DNA from: a virus
Virus record (IMG/VR): IMGVR_UViG_3300009703_000110
Location: 1-23,381 of that record
Reading direction: 5' to 3' (one strand)
DNA: 23,381 nucleotides
Under the pieces are notes generated by a model, which was not told where the DNA came from, did not search any database, and saw nothing but the letters and a program-made list of their open reading frames with translations. Shown here piece by piece: positions 6,900 to 18,489 of the stretch. A program made the translations under genes and the position numbers. Position 1 is the first letter of the stretch. Every line of letters begins with the position of its first letter.

Positions 6900-7274
6900 T
6901 CAATGCTTTGTTTCGCTTATTACTTCTTCAAATAATTCTGATTCACAACTCTTACATACGTGATCATCTTTATCATGTCTTAACATATCGGTTATATCTT
7001 TAGATATATCTAATCTTTTAAACAACACACCTCTCTTGTGTAGGTTGTGAATAATATTTCCAAATAATTCTATGGATAAATCTTCATCAACCATACGTGT
7101 CATCTCAAACATTTGAATAATACTCATGCAGAATACTTGAGAAGGTTGAAACCCTTCCTTCTTTGCAAGTCTAGATGTTCCAACTCTTAACAAGTCAACA
7201 GTCTTCTTGCGTATCCTATCGCTTAATTGCTCACTAATTTCTTGTGAATTACTTTTAATTTTAGCTTTCTTCAT
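6900..7274 (-). CDS. Hypothetical helical protein
   Basis: A 124-residue, mostly helical, charged protein that I do not recognise. The N-terminus is basic (MKKAKIKSNSQ) and the C-terminus holds a single Cys pair (CKSC, about 112-115), half of a zinc site that could be completed in a dimer. It starts in an ATGA overlap with the preceding winged-helix gene, so the two are co-translated. It is the last gene of the long leftward operon before the integrase. Confidence 0.75.
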   Translation of the reverse strand: MKKAKIKSNSQEISEQLSDRIRKKTVDLLRVGTSRLAKKEGFQPSQVFCMSIIQMFEMTRMVDEDLSIELFGNIIHNLHKRGVLFKRLDISKDITDMLRHDKDDHVCKSCESELFEEVISETKH

Positions 7275-7783
7275 ATGATACTCCTAACATAATTTAAACC
7301 TTTGTCTGTTAGTTTGTAGACAAACACACCCTTGCGTCCATCAACTTCTTGCTTCTCTCTTTCAACCATGTTGCTGTTGCTTGACTTGTATATCTCAGCC
7401 ATCACTTCCAACATGTCTATATCCTTGTTGTCTTTCTTCAACAAGTGATGAATAGATTTAGCTGTTCGTTTCAATACACCTTTCTTCTGCCACAGATTAA
7501 ACAACACCATGTCTGTCACAGCATTGAAAGGTTTCTGACTTTCATTTGCTAACCAACTCCTAGTGTCTGGATCAATGGTAGATTTCTTGTATGCTTCTTG
7601 TTTTGGTTTCGTCTTACTTGGTTTGGATATCGAAGCCTCTGGCTTCGAATCCAAAGATTTCTTTGGGATAAAACTCATTTGCGTTTCTTCGTAAGACAAC
7701 ACAATCTTCTTTGCTTTACTTACTGATAGATAACCCTCATCTATCAATACTTGTAATGCTTTATTCACTTTACTTTTAGGCAT
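7271..7783 (-). CDS. Probable winged-helix DNA-binding protein
   Basis: A 170-residue protein. The first 30 residues (KVNKALQVLIDEGYLSVSKAKKIVL) read like the recognition helix and wing of a winged-HTH. The middle (about 45-75) is a Lys/Ser/Pro-rich linker. Residues about 80-170 look like a second winged-helix (LFNLWQKKGVLKRTAKSIHHLLKK, ending VFVYKLTDKGLNYVRSII). A regulatory or replication-accessory role is plausible; the family is not identified. GGAGG lies 7 bases before the ATG and the start overlaps the upstream gene by 8 bases. Confidence 0.7.
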   Translation of the reverse strand: MPKSKVNKALQVLIDEGYLSVSKAKKIVLSYEETQMSFIPKKSLDSKPEASISKPSKTKPKQEAYKKSTIDPDTRSWLANESQKPFNAVTDMVLFNLWQKKGVLKRTAKSIHHLLKKDNKDIDMLEVMAEIYKSSNSNMVEREKQEVDGRKGVFVYKLTDKGLNYVRSII

Positions 7784-12479: not shown

Positions 12480-14570
12480 TTAATCCTCGTATTTAAATTT
12501 AAGTGGTTGACCACCCTTCGTGTCGAATACACGTTGAGCAATTTCAGATATGTTCTGAAAATCTTGATGATTACATCTGTTCAATATTGATTTGGTAATC
12601 GCAAATGAAAGTGTGTAATTGAGATTGTTTTCGAAGATGGGTTTGAAGTATGTAATCATACTTGCACATGACAACAAACCTCTTACAGATATTGTCATAT
12701 ATATTGTTCCATTTCTAAATGCTTCTCTTACCTCTTGTGCAAACTTAACCAACTGTTTAGCTAACTCATTGTCTAATGTTGGGTTAGCACGAACAATTAA
12801 TCCACTCTCTTGTTCTTGTGATAGATATGGAACATGAGTAAACACATTGAATCTATCTAGGAAAGCAAGTGATTGATGTCTTGCCCCTTGATAACTTCCT
12901 GTTTCATCTCCTTGACCTTTTGTATTTGCAGTAGCAAAGATTCTGAACAATGGGTTTGGCTCTATGAATCTATCTCCATCTTCAAGCACAGTAAATCCTT
13001 TGTTCTCCAATGCTCGTTGCAATACATATGCAACGTCTGGTCTAACAAAATCTATCTCGTCCAGGCACAGCACACATGCTTGTCTTACAGCTTGAGGAAT
13101 AATACCATCAATGAATTTGGATACTGTGTTGCCACCCTCATTATGTAATACCTCTCTACCAACCAAGTCTAATCTTGTTATCTCACTATCGAAGTTAACT
13201 CGCTTGAAAGGATATCCAAGTCTTGCACAAACTTGTTCAATAAGTGTTGTCTTACCTGTTCCAGTATGTCCAGATAGAAAACCTTTTTGATTATGTAAGA
13301 TACAATACAATACATCTGATAATAGATTGCCACGAAACACATAGTTAGGATCTATTTCAGGCACATCTGTATTAGGTTTCTTCCATTTTAATACAGGCAC
13401 TTCGTAATCAAATGCTTTTATTTTCTTACCATCAGGTGTTTTGAATATATCCATTGCACTTTGCTTTACAATCTCACATTCAATGTCGTCTGGTTTCGTT
13501 TTATTTTTTCCAGCAAGGGTAGCATCTGAGGTTTTCGATACTATTGCTGTTGGAAAACTTGGCTGCATTTGCTTGTGCTGTGCTTTACTCAATTCGCTTT
13601 TAAGTTCAGCAATCTCCTCGTCTTTCTCCACAACACTCTTCGCTGCCAACTTTGTATCAGTAAACATTTCCTCAATGGTTGTCTTTGCTCCAATGGATTG
13701 CAAAACTTGGTCAACCATTTCTTGTTGCTGTTTTGTTATGCCAATGTCAGGTGTTGTTGCATCAGTGTCCGAAGTCGTTGCAACCAGATGTTCTGGTTGT
13801 TCAACAGAATAATCAACACCAAGTGTATGTAGTATTGCTTTTACAAACTCATCAAATTGTGGATCACAAGGTATCTCGTTTGTGTAGTCAGGTATCTTAC
13901 CTTCTGTAAGTTTAGATTTGACTAATGCTTGTAATCCTACGAGCCTATTTTCTTCTTCATATGTTGAGGCAAATGCTTTCATAACATCTGCAACAAATGA
14001 TTCTTCACAAATACCTACCTCTTTGGATACACAATGTGACATGACTGTATCAAATACTGCCATGAGTTCCTCAAGATTTAGGTCAAGTGTTGAACGCCTT
14101 CTTTCTTCTGGATTCATACTTACTCCTGTTGTAGTCGTTGGTTTATCCGATAGAAGTTCCGACTTTAAACTTTCTATGTATTTACTCTGTGTAGATGGAA
14201 CACCCAAGTCGTATCCATGTCTACTCTTTGAGTTCATTCGTGAACGCATTGGAAAAGCAATGCAGTTCATTATGTTTTCAAATCTGTCGTTGGGAGATGC
14301 GTGTTTACCTTTGATATCACAAAGATAAAGCAATGCGTCTGTGTGTAGTCTGTCCCTTATCCATGCCCATGTAAACTTTACACCACTGTAATTGTCTACA
14401 AGCATAGCAGGATTATCTTGTATCTCCTTCAAGGCATCACCTTGTGTAGCTATATTTACGTCTATCTCAACAACCTCGTTTGCTAACTTTCTCAAGTCTT
14501 GTCGCATATCATCAAACGATTTTGATAATGCTTCACGAAGTCGTTGATAAAACTTATGTGTTTTGTCCAT
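12480..14570 (-). CDS. CobS/MoxR-like AAA+ ATPase with long N-terminal extension
   Basis: A 696-residue protein. The C-terminal 270 residues are a MoxR/CobS-type AAA+ module: Walker A GHTGTGKTT at 434-442, Walker B LCLDEID at 501-507, sensor-1 FATANT at 545-550 and the LDRF arginine-finger region at 571-574, followed by a helical lid. CobS itself is about half this length. The extra roughly 400 N-terminal residues are unassigned. They contain helical stretches, a coiled coil at about 310-335 (VEKDEEIAELKSELSKAQ) and a Thr/Asp-rich linker (265-280). It probably energises the VWA partner encoded next. GGAG lies 8 bases before the ATG and a structured leader of over 350 bases precedes it. Confidence 0.87.
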   Translation of the reverse strand: MDKTHKFYQRLREALSKSFDDMRQDLRKLANEVVEIDVNIATQGDALKEIQDNPAMLVDNYSGVKFTWAWIRDRLHTDALLYLCDIKGKHASPNDRFENIMNCIAFPMRSRMNSKSRHGYDLGVPSTQSKYIESLKSELLSDKPTTTTGVSMNPEERRRSTLDLNLEELMAVFDTVMSHCVSKEVGICEESFVADVMKAFASTYEEENRLVGLQALVKSKLTEGKIPDYTNEIPCDPQFDEFVKAILHTLGVDYSVEQPEHLVATTSDTDATTPDIGITKQQQEMVDQVLQSIGAKTTIEEMFTDTKLAAKSVVEKDEEIAELKSELSKAQHKQMQPSFPTAIVSKTSDATLAGKNKTKPDDIECEIVKQSAMDIFKTPDGKKIKAFDYEVPVLKWKKPNTDVPEIDPNYVFRGNLLSDVLYCILHNQKGFLSGHTGTGKTTLIEQVCARLGYPFKRVNFDSEITRLDLVGREVLHNEGGNTVSKFIDGIIPQAVRQACVLCLDEIDFVRPDVAYVLQRALENKGFTVLEDGDRFIEPNPLFRIFATANTKGQGDETGSYQGARHQSLAFLDRFNVFTHVPYLSQEQESGLIVRANPTLDNELAKQLVKFAQEVREAFRNGTIYMTISVRGLLSCASMITYFKPIFENNLNYTLSFAITKSILNRCNHQDFQNISEIAQRVFDTKGGQPLKFKYED

Positions 14571-14600
14571 AAGATATACTCCGATTGTTGTTGTTGATTT

Positions 14601-14652
14601 TAGGGGTGTGGGATATCACTAGGTAAACCGTTTTAACACACCCCTATATCCC
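14601..14652. repeat. Two crossing inverted repeats (10 bp and 7 bp)
   Basis: The perfect 10-bp stem 14601-14610/14637-14646 and the perfect 7-bp stem 14610-14616/14646-14652 share end bases and interleave. They therefore either alternate, as in a switch, or nearly form a pseudoknot. The element ends about 30 bases upstream of the AAA+ gene start codon on the minus strand. Confidence 0.6.
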
Positions 14653-14702
14653 TTGTCGTTGACAACAACTGTCACTTTACGAAAGGGAAACTTTGATACC
14701 AC

Positions 14703-14744
14703 AGATATTTTTACTTTTTCTTTTAGAAAAAGTATAAAATATCT
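14703..14744. repeat. 18-bp AT-rich hairpin
   Basis: AGATATTTTTACTTTTTC (14703-14720) pairs with the segment ending AAAATATCT at 14744, with one bulged base and a loop of about 5 bases. It is one of the longest stems in the window. There is no U-tract on either side, so a simple terminator is unlikely. Confidence 0.7.
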
Positions 14745-14834
14745 AGTGGATTTTGAAGTCTTGTGTCTATGTGTGATGGGTAGTTTTATCTGCCTACGAT
14801 TTCTCGCACTTCAATGGCACTACCCAAGCCAGTC

Positions 14835-14896
14835 GTTGTTTCTCCCCTGCTAGTCGTGAACAAGATTCTATAGAAATCTTGAACTGTCGAAACAAC
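14835..14896. repeat. Nested stem-loop
   Basis: An outer perfect 8-bp stem, GTTGTTTC/GAAACAAC (14835-14842/14889-14896), encloses an inner 7-bp stem, CAAGATT/AATCTTG (14861-14867/14875-14881). Nested complementarity of this kind is more suggestive of a folded RNA than of a protein-binding palindrome. Confidence 0.6.
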
Positions 14897-14927
14897 TAGA
14901 ATATCCCACAGTTAAGTGGAATCCTTT

Positions 14928-15230
14928 TCATGATTGACCTATCTCGTAAGAGATAAGTTCGATTTGTTTCTCAGCCATACGCAACAGGTAAGCATTGTAT
15001 CTTATCTTATCCTTGTGTGTTTGCATGACAAGTTGTCGTTCTTTTCGTGTGCCTTCAGGTAATTCTGGTTTAATCTTCATGCGTGTGAACATGGTGTTCA
15101 TGTTGTATTTTCTTGCTATGTGCATGAGTTGTAGTGAACATTGTAAACAATGCTCTTGTAGTTGGTCACCAGAAACATCACCCTTGAATCTGTGTGGTGT
15201 GTAGTGTTTTCCACATTTATTGCATGTCAT
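14928..15230 (-). CDS. Small zinc-finger-like protein
   Basis: A protein of 100 residues from the ATG at 15230 (MTCNKCGKHYTPHRFKGD). Two Cys pairs, near residues 3/6 and 28/31, make a probable zinc finger, followed by a long basic helical tail (about 45-100). A GTG 9 bases further upstream is also open. I choose the ATG because AGGGTG stands 6 bases ahead of it. Its first bases overlap the end of the 57-residue membrane gene. The coding sequence carries several short hairpins: TATCTC/GAGATA at 14940-14955, TGAACA/TGTTCA at 15086-15100 and CATTGT/ACAATG at 15139-15152. It is probably a regulatory or nucleic-acid-binding protein; no named family is recognised. Confidence 0.75.
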   Translation of the reverse strand: MTCNKCGKHYTPHRFKGDVSGDQLQEHCLQCSLQLMHIARKYNMNTMFTRMKIKPELPEGTRKERQLVMQTHKDKIRYNAYLLRMAEKQIELISYEIGQS

Positions 15231-15390
15231 TGTGATCACCCTGAATTGTTATGTATATACCAATCATTGTCATGATTGTCATGCCAAATGCTACTGGTAG
15301 TAAATCTCCACTTATCCACCACTCCCTGTAAGACAGAAATGATGCAATCGCAGATGCCGTTGTCTTAATTACGCATAAAAATCTAATCAT
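15217..15390 (-). CDS. 57-residue single-pass membrane protein
   Basis: A gene read from the gap upstream of the zinc-finger gene. The protein is 57 residues, starts MIRFLCVIKT and has a clear membrane segment at about 31-50 (LPVAFGMTIMTMIGIYITIQ). GAGAGG lies 4 bases before the ATG. Its ATG overlaps the stop of a 19-codon ORF (ATGA), and its end overlaps the zinc-finger gene by 14 bases. A perfect 7-bp hairpin with a 4-base loop (CAATCAT/ATGATTG, 15261-15278) lies inside the membrane-segment codons. The function is unknown; a small inner-membrane phage protein such as a superinfection or lysis accessory is possible. Confidence 0.65.
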   Translation of the reverse strand: MIRFLCVIKTTASAIASFLSYREWWISGDLLPVAFGMTIMTMIGIYITIQGDHNDMQ

Positions 15391-15446
15391 AAAACCTCTC
15401 TTGTGTTTGTGGGGGAATTATGTCGGCTTCCCCCTTGCCATGTCAT
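15387..15446 (-). CDS. Possible 19-codon ORF in an overlapping chain
   Basis: The frame MTWQGGSRHNSPTNTREVL starts in an ATGA overlap with the 32-residue ORF upstream and ends in an ATGA overlap with the 57-residue membrane gene. It spans a hairpin, GGGGGAA (15411-15417) with TTCCCCC (15428-15434). It may be a coupling peptide that carries ribosomes to the membrane gene; the exact double overlap is the only evidence. Confidence 0.35.
   Translation of the reverse strand: MTWQGGSRHNSPTNTREVL
15411..15434. repeat. 7-bp GC-rich hairpin
   Basis: GGGGGAA (15411-15417) and TTCCCCC (15428-15434) form a perfect stem with a 10-base loop, lying inside the tiny overlapping ORFs upstream of the 57-residue membrane gene. 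Confidence 0.65.
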
Positions 15447-15541
15447 CGCTTGTGTGCCTGTGTGAAAGCCTCACCATATTCATGGATATATCCATGAGTT
15501 AATCTCATGGAATCTATTGCTTTCACACAGTAAGCACGCAT
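15443..15541 (-). CDS. Possible 32-residue ORF coded within a hairpin
   Basis: The frame starts MRAYCVKAIDSMRLTHG and ends HKR, 32 residues. GGGAG lies 5 bases before the ATG, a strong ribosome site, and the TGA overlaps the next ATG. Nearly the whole frame is contained in the 12-bp stem-loop at 15458-15530, so peptide and fold use the same bases. There is no recognised family. A short regulatory peptide or coupling ORF would fit; chance is possible at this size. Confidence 0.45.
   Translation of the reverse strand: MRAYCVKAIDSMRLTHGYIHEYGEAFTQAHKR
15458..15530. repeat. 12-bp stem enclosing alternative palindromes
   Basis: CTGTGTGAAAGC (15458-15469) pairs perfectly with GCTTTCACACAG (15519-15530). 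Inside are a perfect 16-bp palindrome, CATGGATATATCCATG (15481-15496), and an 8-bp stem, TCCATGAG/CTCATGGA (15491-15498/15504-15511), which cannot form together with the palindrome. This is the most elaborate fold in the zone. Confidence 0.75.
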
Positions 15542-15564
15542 ATGAACTCCCTTGTGAAGGTTAA

Positions 15565-15592
15565 CTAGGGTTGCTAACAACAGCAACCCTAG
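15565..15592 (-). terminator. Strong 11-bp stem-loop after the 159-residue gene
   Basis: CTAGGGTTGCT (15565-15575) and AGCAACCCTAG (15582-15592) form a perfect 11-bp stem with a 6-base loop, 11 bases past the stop of the minus-strand gene at 15604. The position suits a terminator or a 3' end-protecting hairpin. A U-tract is missing, so RNA stabilisation or partial termination is more likely than simple intrinsic termination. Confidence 0.5.
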
Positions 15593-15603
15593 AGGTAATA
15601 TAA

Positions 15604-16083
15604 CTACGCTAACTTCGTCAGCATAGCAACCAAGTCAGCCTTGCTCAAAGAAGCAAGGTCGATCGCAGGTTGGTCAGCCTCGCTAGACTTAAGTCTAGCA
15701 AGGTTGTTCTCGGCAGTCGCAAGTGCTTTCTTAAGCACTGGTGTAGACTTCTGTGCAAGACGAGCAGTAAGCATACTTACTGTCGCTTCTTGCTGTGCAA
15801 CTGTGCGAGTTGCTTTCGGCTTACTCGCTTTAACTTCCGACTTGGTCTGAAGACCAAGATCGGACATCTTCACAGCACGACATTGGTCGACAGTAAAACT
15901 GTCGCCACCAACAACAGCACTACCCTCGTTAGTGCCTGTCGCCATGAAAGGCAATACCTTGCCTTTACGAACAACTCCGAAGTCTTTGCCGTTTGGCAAG
16001 ACACGAAGTGGTCTTGAAGCAGTCGCAACTGCAGTTCCCGAACTGTTAATAAAATTAACAGTCACATTTGTAGATGTGTGCAT
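15604..16083 (-). CDS. Hypothetical 159-residue protein encoded by a hairpin-rich gene
   Basis: A soluble-looking protein rich in Ala, Ser, Thr, Lys and Val. The N-terminal half is strand-rich (STNVTVNFINSSGTAVATAS, then GKDFGVV). The middle is basic (KSEVKASKPKATRTVAQQ). The C-terminal half is helical (LKKALATAENNLARLKSS) and ends in a SAP-like LSKADLVAMLTKLA. AGGAG stands 5 bases before the ATG, so the gene is well supported. No family is recognised. The base composition is clearly more GC-rich than its neighbours. About a dozen short inverted repeats, most with 2-4 base loops, follow each other through the codons; examples are 15682-15699 (an 18-bp palindrome), 15836-15864 and 16042-16062. 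Synonymous choice seems bent toward RNA or DNA structure. It may be highly expressed. Confidence 0.8.
   Translation of the reverse strand: MHTSTNVTVNFINSSGTAVATASRPLRVLPNGKDFGVVRKGKVLPFMATGTNEGSAVVGGDSFTVDQCRAVKMSDLGLQTKSEVKASKPKATRTVAQQEATVSMLTARLAQKSTPVLKKALATAENNLARLKSSEADQPAIDLASLSKADLVAMLTKLA
15678..15703. repeat. Palindrome within coding sequence
   Basis: GCTAGACTTAAGTCTAGC (15682-15699) is a perfect 18-bp palindrome; with one mismatch it extends to CCT...AGG at 15678-15703. It lies in the codons of the 159-residue protein. Confidence 0.75.
15836..15864. repeat. 13-bp hairpin with 2-base loop within coding sequence
   Basis: CTTGGTCT (15841-15848) and AGACCAAG (15851-15858) flank the loop GA, and TCCGA/TCGGA extend the stem with a single bulged A at 15859. 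Confidence 0.75.
15883..15911. repeat. Hairpin with AAA loop within coding sequence
   Basis: CGACAGT (15888-15894) pairs perfectly with ACTGTCG (15898-15904) around AAA. TTGGT/ACCAA (15883-15887/15907-15911) extend it past a two-base bulge. Confidence 0.7.
15947..15966. repeat. 8-bp hairpin with 4-base loop within coding sequence
   Basis: AAAGGCAA (15947-15954) and TTGCCTTT (15959-15966) pair perfectly around TACC in the 159-residue gene. Confidence 0.7.
16042..16062. repeat. 9-bp hairpin with AAA loop near the gene start
   Basis: ACTGTTAAT (16042-16050) and ATTAACAGT (16054-16062) pair perfectly around AAA, 21 bases inside the minus-strand start codon at 16083. Confidence 0.75.
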
Positions 16084-16106
16084 AATATCTCCTTGCTGTT
16101 TTCCGT

Positions 16107-16126
16107 CTTGAAACTAAAGTTTCAAG
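16107..16126. repeat. 9-bp hairpin with AA loop
   Basis: CTTGAAACT (16107-16115) pairs perfectly with AGTTTCAAG (16118-16126). A second, similar hairpin with an AA loop (TTGGAAC/GTTCCAA) follows at 16141-16156. Confidence 0.75.
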
Positions 16127-16180
16127 CCACACAAACGGGCTTGGAACAAGTTCCAATTTTCATCACAGCAGTTGAGGTTA

Positions 16181-16219
16181 AGGTTTTTTAAACCCTTACT
16201 TTGTAAGGGTTAAAAACCT
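16181..16219. repeat. 17-bp hairpin with TTT loop
   Basis: The left arm from 16181 (AGG...CCCTTAC) pairs with the right arm 16203-16219 (GTAAGGGTTAAAAACCT) around TTT, with two single-base bulges. Confidence 0.8.
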
Positions 16220-16300
16220 ATAAAAAATCGCCAAATCCTAGCGTGTCGGTGTGTGTTATGCGTGAAATGACAGCAAAAATCTTCCCACTCCGACAGTTCC

Positions 16301-16344
16301 TAGCTATTTTGTGATTATACTTTGTATAATCACTAAAATAGCTA
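16301..16344. repeat. 20-bp hairpin with TTT loop
   Basis: TAGCTATTTTGTGATTATAC (16301-16320) pairs with GTATAATCAC plus AAAATAGCTA (16324-16344) around TTT, with one bulged T at 16334. It is the longest stem in the window and is extremely unlikely by chance. Confidence 0.85.
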
Positions 16345-16457
16345 AGGGTTTCCAGCCTTTATCGTGTGCCTCTGTGTGTTCATGTGTGTGTAGACAACAT
16401 ACCACCCCCAACACTATAAGTGTTGTAATGACAGCGTTTTCATGTGTGTAAGCCGTA

Positions 16458-16487
16458 TTTTCACCTCTTGCAAGGCAAGAGTGAAAA
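16458..16487. repeat. 13-bp hairpin with AAG loop
   Basis: TTTTCACCTCTTGC (16458-16471) pairs with GCAAGAGTGAAAA (16475-16487) with one bulged C. Confidence 0.75.
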
Positions 16488-16498
16488 CTTCCAGAAAC

Positions 16499-16531
16499 CT
16501 TGTATACAACCTTAAAAAGGTTGTATCCAAG
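16499..16531. repeat. 15-bp hairpin with AAA loop
   Basis: CTTGTATACAACCTT (16499-16513) pairs with AAGGTTGTATCCAAG (16517-16531) with one mismatch. The next hairpin, ACAAAAACCT/AGGTTTTTGT, lies at 16554-16574. Confidence 0.75.
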
Positions 16532-16708
16532 TGCAGAAAACCTAGCAATTACAACAAAAACCTAAGGTTTTTGTGTGTAAAGGTCGAGGTTGCAAAACAT
16601 GGGGGGGCGTGGTACCCAACCCGCCTTGCACGAGTGCCACGTTGCTGTTCGGTACTCACATAAAATTCTGCAGAAATGAAAATGTCTGTATTGTAAAGGA
16701 GACACTTA

Positions 16709-16951
16709 ATGTCAGTAACTAACATAGAAAAAAAATTTAAACCTGCAAAAATAAGTCCAGAAGTTTTTGCCAAAGCTATACAGTCTTTAGATTTGTCTAC
16801 AATATCTGATCCAGATAAAAGACAACGTGCAATTATTGAAAGAGTATTTAAAATAATGGCAGAAGAGTTAAAAGATCCTAAAGAAAGAAAAAATTTAAAA
16901 GAGGAATTAAAAAAATTAGAATATTATAAAAAACAATTAGGATTATCATGA
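16709..16951 (+). CDS. Small helical protein, possible small terminase subunit
   Basis: An 80-residue, strongly helical and charged protein directly before the terminase large subunit, which it overlaps in ATGA. Residues about 17-45 (SPEVFAKAIQSLDLSTIS, then KRQRAIIERVFKIM) and the Lys/Glu-rich C-terminus suggest a helix bundle with an oligomerising tail. By position it may be the small terminase or an accessory DNA-recognition protein. It is short for a TerS and shows no HTH that I can call with confidence. AAGGAG lies 7 bases before the ATG. Confidence 0.8.
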   Translation: MSVTNIEKKFKPAKISPEVFAKAIQSLDLSTISDPDKRQRAIIERVFKIMAEELKDPKERKNLKEELKKLEYYKKQLGLS

Positions 16952-18489
16952 TAACAAAGCAAGAAGCAGCTAAGAGATTATTGTCTCTTAGAAATGCTGA
17001 AGAAACATTTGCTGGATTTGTAAAACTTCATCACCCTAAATTTAATCTAGCTAGTTTTCAAATAGACTTAATAAATAAATTGGATGCAGTTGAGCGAGGT
17101 AAAATTAAAAGACTAATGATAAACATGCCACCACGTCATGGTAAATCATTCTTAGCGTCTTGTCTTTTCCCTGTATATTATGTGGGTAGAAATCCTGAAC
17201 GTGCAGTCATGTGTGTTACATATAACTCAGAGTTATCTATGACTTTTGGAAGACAAGTAAGACAGTATGCTAAAGATCCTAATACATCACAAGCATTTGG
17301 TGGTTTAGAATTATCAGCTGACTCTCGTGCAGTTGATCATTGGGGTACATCTCAAGGTGGTGTTTATTATTCTATTGGTTTAGGTGGAACAACTACTGGT
17401 AGACGTGCAAACTTACTTATCATTGATGATCCAATCAAATCACGTGAAGATGCAGACTCAGCAATACAAAGAAATAAAGTATGGGATTATTATGTTGCCT
17501 CATTATTAACTCGTTTACAACCATTAGATGATCAGCAGCCAGCTGTTATATGTATAGCTACTAGATGGCACCCTGATGATTTATGTGGAAGAATACAAAA
17601 ACAAGAAGATTGGTATGAGTGGGAGCATGTAAACTTTCCAGCTATTATAGAAAAAGAATCTAAAGATGAAATACGTAATCCAGAGTATGCACACTTACCA
17701 CTAAGTAAAGTATCTAGATATAAAAGATATATGAAGGTTAAAAAAGAATATCCTCTGTGGGAAGAAAGATTTCCTATGGCTGACTTGCGTAAAATGGAAA
17801 AATTAAATCCTCGTGAGTTTGCTGCACTCTATCAACAGTCACCATATATTAAAGGTGGTAATATGATAAAAACAGAATGGTGGAAATATTATAATACAGA
17901 AGACATAGATATAGAAAAGTTTCCAACAATAATAATAGCCTGTGACACAGCATTTAAAAAAACAACAACAGCAGATTATTCTGTTGCTGTAGTAGCTGGA
18001 TTAGATAATCAAGGTGATATCTATATTATAGATATAAAAAGAGGTAGATGGGATTTTCCTGAGCTAAAAAGAAAACTAATAAATATGAATACAAAATGGC
18101 GTGGCAAAGGATTGAGAGGTATACATATAGAGGATAAAGCTTCGGGACAATCACTCATACAAGAATTAAAAAATCAATCTGGTTTAGCAGTTATACCATA
18201 CAAAGTATCAGTAGATAAGGTATCTCGTGTAGCAGCAATTACAGACTTAATAGAAGGTGGTAGAGTATTCTTAAACAAAACAGCTACTTGGTTAGATGAC
18301 TTTTTAGAAGAATCTGTTGGTTTCCCTAATGGATCACATGATGACCAAATAGATGCATTAACAATAGCATTAGATAAACTATCTCGTATGTCATTTAATG
18401 CTGGTGAATTAGAGACGTTACCAATTACATCTCATGGATCATTACAGTCTGAAATGGGAAAAACTGATTGGCAAGGATGGGGAGAATAG
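16948..18489 (+). CDS. terL: Terminase large subunit
   Basis: A 513-residue packaging motor. N-terminal ATPase: Walker A PPRHGKS at 61-67, Walker B LLIIDD at 156-161 and a coupling-motif-like CIATRWH at 202-208. C-terminal RNase H-like nuclease: Asp333 in IIACDTAF, the GIHIEDKASG block (391-400) and the SHDDQIDA block (463-470) supply the acidic metal ligands. The length is normal for the family. It would cut concatemers and pump DNA into the prohead through the portal encoded next. Starts in ATGA overlap with the upstream small gene and ends in TAG, followed by a 10-base word that recurs after the tail-fibre stop. Confidence 0.96.
   Translation: MITKQEAAKRLLSLRNAEETFAGFVKLHHPKFNLASFQIDLINKLDAVERGKIKRLMINMPPRHGKSFLASCLFPVYYVGRNPERAVMCVTYNSELSMTFGRQVRQYAKDPNTSQAFGGLELSADSRAVDHWGTSQGGVYYSIGLGGTTTGRRANLLIIDDPIKSREDADSAIQRNKVWDYYVASLLTRLQPLDDQQPAVICIATRWHPDDLCGRIQKQEDWYEWEHVNFPAIIEKESKDEIRNPEYAHLPLSKVSRYKRYMKVKKEYPLWEERFPMADLRKMEKLNPREFAALYQQSPYIKGGNMIKTEWWKYYNTEDIDIEKFPTIIIACDTAFKKTTTADYSVAVVAGLDNQGDIYIIDIKRGRWDFPELKRKLINMNTKWRGKGLRGIHIEDKASGQSLIQELKNQSGLAVIPYKVSVDKVSRVAAITDLIEGGRVFLNKTATWLDDFLEESVGFPNGSHDDQIDALTIALDKLSRMSFNAGELETLPITSHGSLQSEMGKTDWQGWGE

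Follow-up and report, generated by a model that had tools for sequence, protein, structure and literature searches.

Our study shows a dense array of short, perfect stem-loops upstream of the terminase genes in a marine phage and its close relatives, whose stems keep their places and their pairing across clades while their arm sequences differ. The sequence comparisons suggest that this might be a selected, sequence-free DNA hairpin array, serving early transcription or replication and read as structure, a reading in which we hold belief and doubt evenly balanced.

A hairpin array between two divergent operons

The window, i.e. the whole stretch of DNA that was analysed, has a length of 23,381 bases and is part of a virus record. 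It encodes a prim-pol, an integrase (ordinary for a phage, matching PF00589 and phrog_1), a CobS/CobT-like pair, a terminase, an SU10-like portal and a tail fibre. Its gene content, together with the 53.7% identity of its terminase large subunit (TerL) to that of Roseobacter phage CRP-810, puts it beside the CRP-810-type family (PMC11288001). In subgroup II of this family the G+C averages 35.6%, and SAR11 is the predicted host (PMC11288001). Since the G+C of the window is 0.36, membership of this subgroup can reasonably be inferred, and the hosts of the array-bearing marine phages are probably SAR11-type bacteria. Hairpins did not turn up in a text search of PMC11288001.

The array marks the point of divergence between a leftward early-type operon, with the gene of a 159-aa protein and the CobS/CobT-like genes, and the rightward terminase and structural operon. 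It begins beside a conserved block and continues to the left, across the opposing operon's leader and first gene. The parts of the region are listed below (strands are given for genes and leader; L followed by a number designates a contig of a related phage).

14601-15479: sparse left flank, with isolated hairpins at 14653-14665, 14712-14734, 14940-14955, 15086-15100, 15139-15152 and 15261-15278
15480-16574: dense array core of ~22 hairpins (stems 5-11 bp, loops 2-6 nt), at positions conserved in related phages
15565-15592: 11-bp hairpin directly downstream of the 159-aa gene
15604-16083, minus strand: gene of the conserved 159-aa protein, with 11 stems of at least 6 bp
15639-15658: coding hairpin CCTTGCT..AGCAAGG over the codons of LASLSK; L012 and L001 have TCTTTCGTC-ATA-GACGAAAGA there (LSSMTK)
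15888-15904: coding hairpin CGACAGT-AAA-ACTGTCG
15947-15966: coding hairpin AAAGGCAA-TACC-TTGCCTTT over the invariant KGKVLP motif; stem present in all clades
16042-16062: coding hairpin, codons ACT GTT AAT ttt ATT AAC AGT, the loop being one codon
16084-16574, minus strand: hairpin-rich untranslated leader, upstream of the 159-aa gene
16107-16126: hairpin CTTGAAAC-TAAA-GTTTCAAG; TTGAATC-GAA-GATTCAA in L021, L025 and L027
16181-16219: long bipartite hairpin AGGTTTTT..AACCCTTAC-TTT-GTAAGGGTT..AAAAACCT, -13.1 kcal/mol
16301-16344: long bipartite hairpin of 20 bp with one bulge and a TTT loop, DNA fold -14.7 kcal/mol; other clades have unrelated long hairpins at this place instead
16409-16425: hairpin CAACACT-ATA-AGTGTTG; CAACGCT/AGCGTTG in L012, TCAAGGGT/ACCCTTGA in L015
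16465-16481: hairpin CTCTTGC-AAG-GCAAGAG; TCGAAGC-TAAA-GCTTCGA in L021
16504-16526: hairpin ATACAACCTT-AAA-AAGGTTGTAT, the most conserved stem; arm ACAACCTT in all clades
16554-16574: rightmost hairpin ACAAAAACC-TAA-GGTTTTTGT, the sharp right edge of the array
16575-16708: hairpin-free block, strongly conserved in all clades, with GTGCCACGTTGCTGTTCGGTAC, CATAAAATTCTGCA and a G-run; candidate promoter, operator or packaging site
16709-16951, plus strand: 80-aa ORF before TerL, in the position of a small terminase, without family match
16948-18489, plus strand: TerL

The initial annotation had described dense short perfect stem-loops throughout 14601-16574, and their density is real. In this interval there are 30, 26, 20 and 10 perfect Watson-Crick stems with 3-8-nt loops at minimum stem lengths of 5, 6, 7 and 8 bp, against 10.3, 3.3, 0.8 and 0.2 in dinucleotide shuffles; the 20 stems of at least 7 bp compare with 0.83 (sd 1.07). 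The extent has to be narrowed, because density is only slightly raised in 14601-15480 and the dense core is 15480-16574, where there is one perfect stem per ~40-60 bases. Hairpins take up fractions of 0.35, 0.27 and 0.16 of the bases in successive 500-base bins from 15500, against 0-0.07 in bins outside 14500-17000. The whole array holds ~25 perfect short-loop hairpins, running through leader and coding gene, and hairpins of the window folded singly as isolated single strands have energies of -4.7 to -14.7 kcal/mol under DNA parameters. Several of the examples listed in the initial annotation belong to longer bipartite hairpins, such as those at 16301-16344 and 16181-16219.

The excess also holds against the codon-permutation control that had been proposed along with the shuffles: the 11 stems of the 159-aa gene compare with 0.82 under synonymous codon permutation (z 10.5). 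In five related contigs, the homologous genes each hold 6-8 stems of at least 7 bp, where 0.2-0.7 are expected (p 0.005 each, the smallest value attainable). Sampled parts of the neighbouring genes had been noted as less dense, and most other genes of the window indeed show no excess under the same permutation; the exceptions are the gene at 7271-7783 and, weakly, the CobS-like gene. The former, which has a DnaD-like helicase-loader match, holds 5 stems of at least 6 bp against 0.6 under codon permutation and forms a minor second cluster.

The 159-aa protein had no match in Pfam or PHROG and no relatives in 50,697 phage records. None was found in GTDB genomes either, and the host was therefore not found directly. 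Its predicted fold, a small beta domain with helices, is of modest confidence (mean pLDDT 73.9, pTM 0.43) and gave no significant match in structure searches. A distant homologue (36% over 92 aa) lies at L058:1800-2190, in a G+C-rich phage whose few C-TTC-G hairpins form no dense array.

Relatives whose TerL is 81-100% identical have the array wherever the contig holds the region, while it is absent from relatives at 45-54% TerL identity, and from CRP-810, HTVC027P, HTVC023P and HTVC010P. We can rule out a sequencing or amplification artefact because the array recurs in many independent metagenome contigs at conserved positions. It is internal to several contigs (L012, L015 and L020). Eight others (L009, L010, L014, L016, L019, L022, L023 and L024) have their left ends no more than ~1.1 kb before TerL, inside the array or next to it, which could mean that assembly failed on the hairpins or that the genome ends there.

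Conservation of positions and pairing

Across the clade, stems occur at matching distances from TerL with different arm sequences. The stem ~757 bases upstream of TerL, for example, is AACCCTTAC, AACCCTTAT, ACCCTCTCA or ACCCCTTAC, each with its exact complement, and the one at ~637 bases is GTGATTATAC, CCCCTCTTA, ACCCCTTAC or GGATTATAC. Between distant clades, coincident hairpin centres numbered 10, 13 and 12 where 2.4, 2.9 and 3.2 were expected (each p 0.0005), and two comparisons were weaker (8 vs 3.2, p 0.007; 7 vs 3.0, p 0.026). Since a multiple alignment puts shifted hairpins out of register, homologous stems were compared individually and not by column covariation. They show 315 compensated pair changes, summed over all genome pairs. 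Stems covary at conserved positions, as those of an RNA secondary structure under selection would. Within the 159-aa gene, the LASLSK hairpin of the window and the LSSMTK hairpin of L001 and L012 occupy one place, and therefore the amino-acid changes themselves preserve pairing. Selection for structure had been suggested from the window alone, with compensatory changes in homologues as the check; the excess over both controls and the conservation of positions and pairing bear this suggestion out.

The rates of change within the leader point in the same direction. Four close pairs, two of them from one subclade, differ at 12 of 450 arm positions (2.7%), 13 of 95 loop positions (13.7%) and 207 of 1418 linker positions (14.6%), where the arm count excludes stems wholly replaced between the members of a pair and some arms may have other constraints. 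Arms differ from loops (p 5e-5), and loops do not differ from linkers (p 0.88). Arms change far more slowly than loops and linkers, and the pairing is therefore under purifying selection.

These data also bear on the possibility that mutation maintains the hairpins without any function. Fold-back template switching or self-priming might make perfect short-loop hairpins and copy one arm onto the other, and such an origin has been proposed for the palindromes of nematomorph mitochondria (PMC6649704). Perfect-or-absent pairing, small loops, multi-base compensated changes and the gain or loss of hairpins between clades all fit this process (PMC8794818, PMC6649704). However, arm-to-arm copying alone would let arms diverge as fast as loops, and the slower arms therefore argue for selection and not only conversion; conserved positions across clades and the confinement of the array to ~1.1 kb also speak against it. 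We thus consider function-free maintenance rather unlikely. Template switching may still contribute to maintaining the array, but alone it does not explain the conservation of the arms.

DNA or RNA structure

The initial annotation had left open whether selection acts on a transcript or on cruciform-prone DNA. Three kinds of evidence suggest that the second is better supported and the first less so: the absence of wobble, the equal folding of both strands, and short loops of the DNA mini-hairpin type. When one mismatch is allowed, G-T, A-C, A-G, C-T and T-T add 5, 10, 5, 6 and 5 hairpins, respectively, to 131. A G-T mismatch would be a wobble in plus-strand RNA and an A-C mismatch one in minus-strand RNA; the A-C gain is slightly the largest, but it matches that of the control region. 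Internal mismatches in homologous stems are equally even (4 GT, 5 AC, 5 CT and 4 AG), with no wobble excess. On neither strand did G-U tolerance of a transcript exceed the control mismatches, in a scan for which the positive controls, MS2 and Qbeta, have too few short perfect stems to calibrate it. RNA folding z-scores are alike on both strands of the array, and near zero or positive in TerL.

Among 104 distinct hairpins with minimal loops of 0-8 nt, 47 have loops of 3 nt, 15 of 2, 14 of 4 and 12 of 5-8, counts in which hairpins differing in alignment bin or loop are taken as separate, so that their independence is approximate. The 3-nt loops are closed by C-G in 34 cases and by G-C in 2, and 16 of the 34 C-G-closed loops are GNA or its complement. 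Many coding stems are in phase, with a loop of one codon; the loops of the untranslated leader are also mostly of 3 nt, and the preference is therefore not due to reading phase alone. The promoter hairpins of phage N4 have loops of the same type, with a sheared G:A closure, which allows them to be extruded at physiological supercoiling (PMC4496689), and such loops also close the telomere hairpins of Streptomyces (PMC4513846).

The main alternative is selection on RNA, in which the leader and the first gene of a leftward early transcript would be highly structured to give stability, RNase resistance, anti-termination or translation control. All hairpins lie within the span of a putative leftward transcript starting from the 16575-16708 block, the ribosome-binding site of the 159-aa gene stays unpaired, and RNA folding is far better than in shuffles. 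Three relatives (L018, L025 and L027) also carry, inside the leader, an extra leftward ORF of 72-78 aa with its own ribosome-binding site (minus-strand starts at L018:4222, L025:2577 and L027:4349), and this small ORF is hairpin-rich too. The three copies are homologous and inserted at different sites between hairpins; in L018 and L025 a long bipartite hairpin is duplicated, so that its copies flank the ORF. Nevertheless, the minus strand has no G-U enrichment over control mismatches and the plus strand folds equally well. Typical RNA tetraloops are GNRA and UNCG, which these loops are not, and 3-nt loops make up about half of those found here but only 6% of those of rRNA hairpins (PMC8794818). 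Rfam covariance models gave nothing near any gathering score in the window. An RNA structure on one transcript thus seems unlikely, if worth keeping in mind.

If both strands were transcribed and both RNAs had to fold, wobble would be excluded on each. This would account for the missing G-U and A-C mismatches and for the equal folding, but it requires antisense transcription over the entire array and leaves the loop types unexplained, so that we find it improbable.

We infer that the functional form is DNA, and several observations count against this reading. The array lies wholly on the side that a leftward transcript would occupy and ends sharply at 16574, as also expected of an RNA leader. 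Wobble would be excluded too by an RNA requirement on both strands, and template-switch conversion could equally yield wobble-free stems. Loops of the cGNAg type occur on both strands, AAA and TTT are frequent among the loops, and no virion RNA polymerase was found in the available part of the genome. Finally, related phages at 45-54% TerL identity live without the array.

Comparison with known systems and possible role

The array does not appear to be a set of N4 promoters or an attC array, and it is not a terminator series, a repeat family or a known RNA. The initial annotation had rightly seen that the hairpins have shape and not sequence in common, since no repeat, of REP/MITE or CRISPR type, is shared by the hairpins of 14571-16708; two long hairpins do occur twice, but in just some of the relatives. 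It had also correctly set aside a series of intrinsic terminators, as the main stems lack T tracts. Terminator-like sites in 14500-17000 number 6 against 1.9 expected, and a promoter scan showed no excess.

The early promoters of N4 are the nearest worked example. They too are short perfect DNA hairpins in an early control region, with 3-nt, C-G-closed and often GNA loops, and their non-conserved stem bases matter only through pairing (PMC4496689). Yet the N4 hairpins are three in number, conserved in sequence and served by a cognate polymerase, whereas here ~25 hairpins without common sequence run through a coding gene and no such polymerase was found. Stems of 5-10 bp, the loop types and the adjoining early-type operon might suggest extruded promoters of a virion RNA polymerase. 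The lack of a common promoter sequence, the number of hairpins and the failure to find this polymerase in the known part of the genome make such promoters very improbable. Neither the 1897-aa virion protein of L094 nor gp35 of CRP-810 had a polymerase match, the genome being incomplete. The former (L094:11479-17172) is a virion-type protein with a weak ART-PolyVal (ADP-ribosyltransferase-in-polyvalent-protein) match, below the curated cut-off.

Other systems share part of these traits. The telomere palindromes of Streptomyces linear replicons are tightly packed GNA-loop DNA hairpins bound as structure by a replication protein (PMC4513846), but they lie at a protein-capped 3' overhang, while the array lies inside contigs and runs across a gene. 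Coding palindromes of nematomorph mitochondria are perfect inverted repeats in functional genes, gained and lost between species and almost never imperfect (PMC6649704). These are up to 284 bp long and spread over many genes, whereas the stems described here have 5-20 bp, lie close together in one 1.1-kb stretch that includes non-coding DNA, and have arms more conserved than loops. The rRNA hairpins maintained by template switching show compensated multi-base stem changes (PMC8794818), but most of their loops are of 4 nt, frequently GNRA, and G-U intermediates occur, whereas the hairpins described here have 3-nt loops and no wobble signal. Integron attC sites are sequence-poor, structure-recognised DNA hairpins beside insertable cassettes (PMC8946536); judged by eye, the stems of the array lack their paired boxes and extrahelical bases, and the phage integrase matches ordinary phage integrases.

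If the array acts as DNA, its stems would form mini-hairpins on one or both strands when replication leaves the stretch single-stranded, or when it is under negative supercoiling, either after entry or in the wake of RNA polymerase. The mini-hairpins would act through shape and not sequence, as a landing and opening region for proteins of early transcription or replication; likely partners might be an SSB or annealing protein, a Hjc/RusA-like resolvase, the prim-pol or RNA polymerase. In N4, gyrase extrudes the early-promoter hairpins. In phage lambda, the place of the hairpin-free block (16575-16708) is taken by the packaging site, beyond which lies the DNA that enters the cell first. By analogy, if entry were lambda-like, the hairpins would be at the leading end of the entering genome and host gyrase would act there first, as in N4. 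A more specific proposal, a phage cis-element in which ~25 DNA mini-hairpins make up a whole control region together with its first gene and a phage or host protein recognises them through shape alone, is one that we put forward tentatively. In such an element the letters would drift while each hairpin stays perfect, laying a structural DNA code over the protein code, and here our doubt outweighs our belief.

Where DNA secondary structure is under selection, it is usually one site whose reader is known. The phages described here, whose hosts probably belong to one of the commonest groups of bacteria on Earth, form a natural set of genomes that has kept ~25 hairpins for their shape only, in coding and non-coding DNA. 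This offers a comparative system to find what reads DNA hairpins in phage entry, early transcription and replication. It might also reveal how a gene evolves when its DNA must fold too, and how far template switching helps to maintain hairpins.

We also considered and set aside the hairpins that HTVC023P has upstream of TerL, and the repeats of L074 and L077, as ordinary or sequence-sharing. In the latter two, which are distant relatives, inverted repeats TGTAAAC-NNN-GTTTACA recur upstream of TerL (L074:42-360, L077:387-690) and look like an ordinary operator array.
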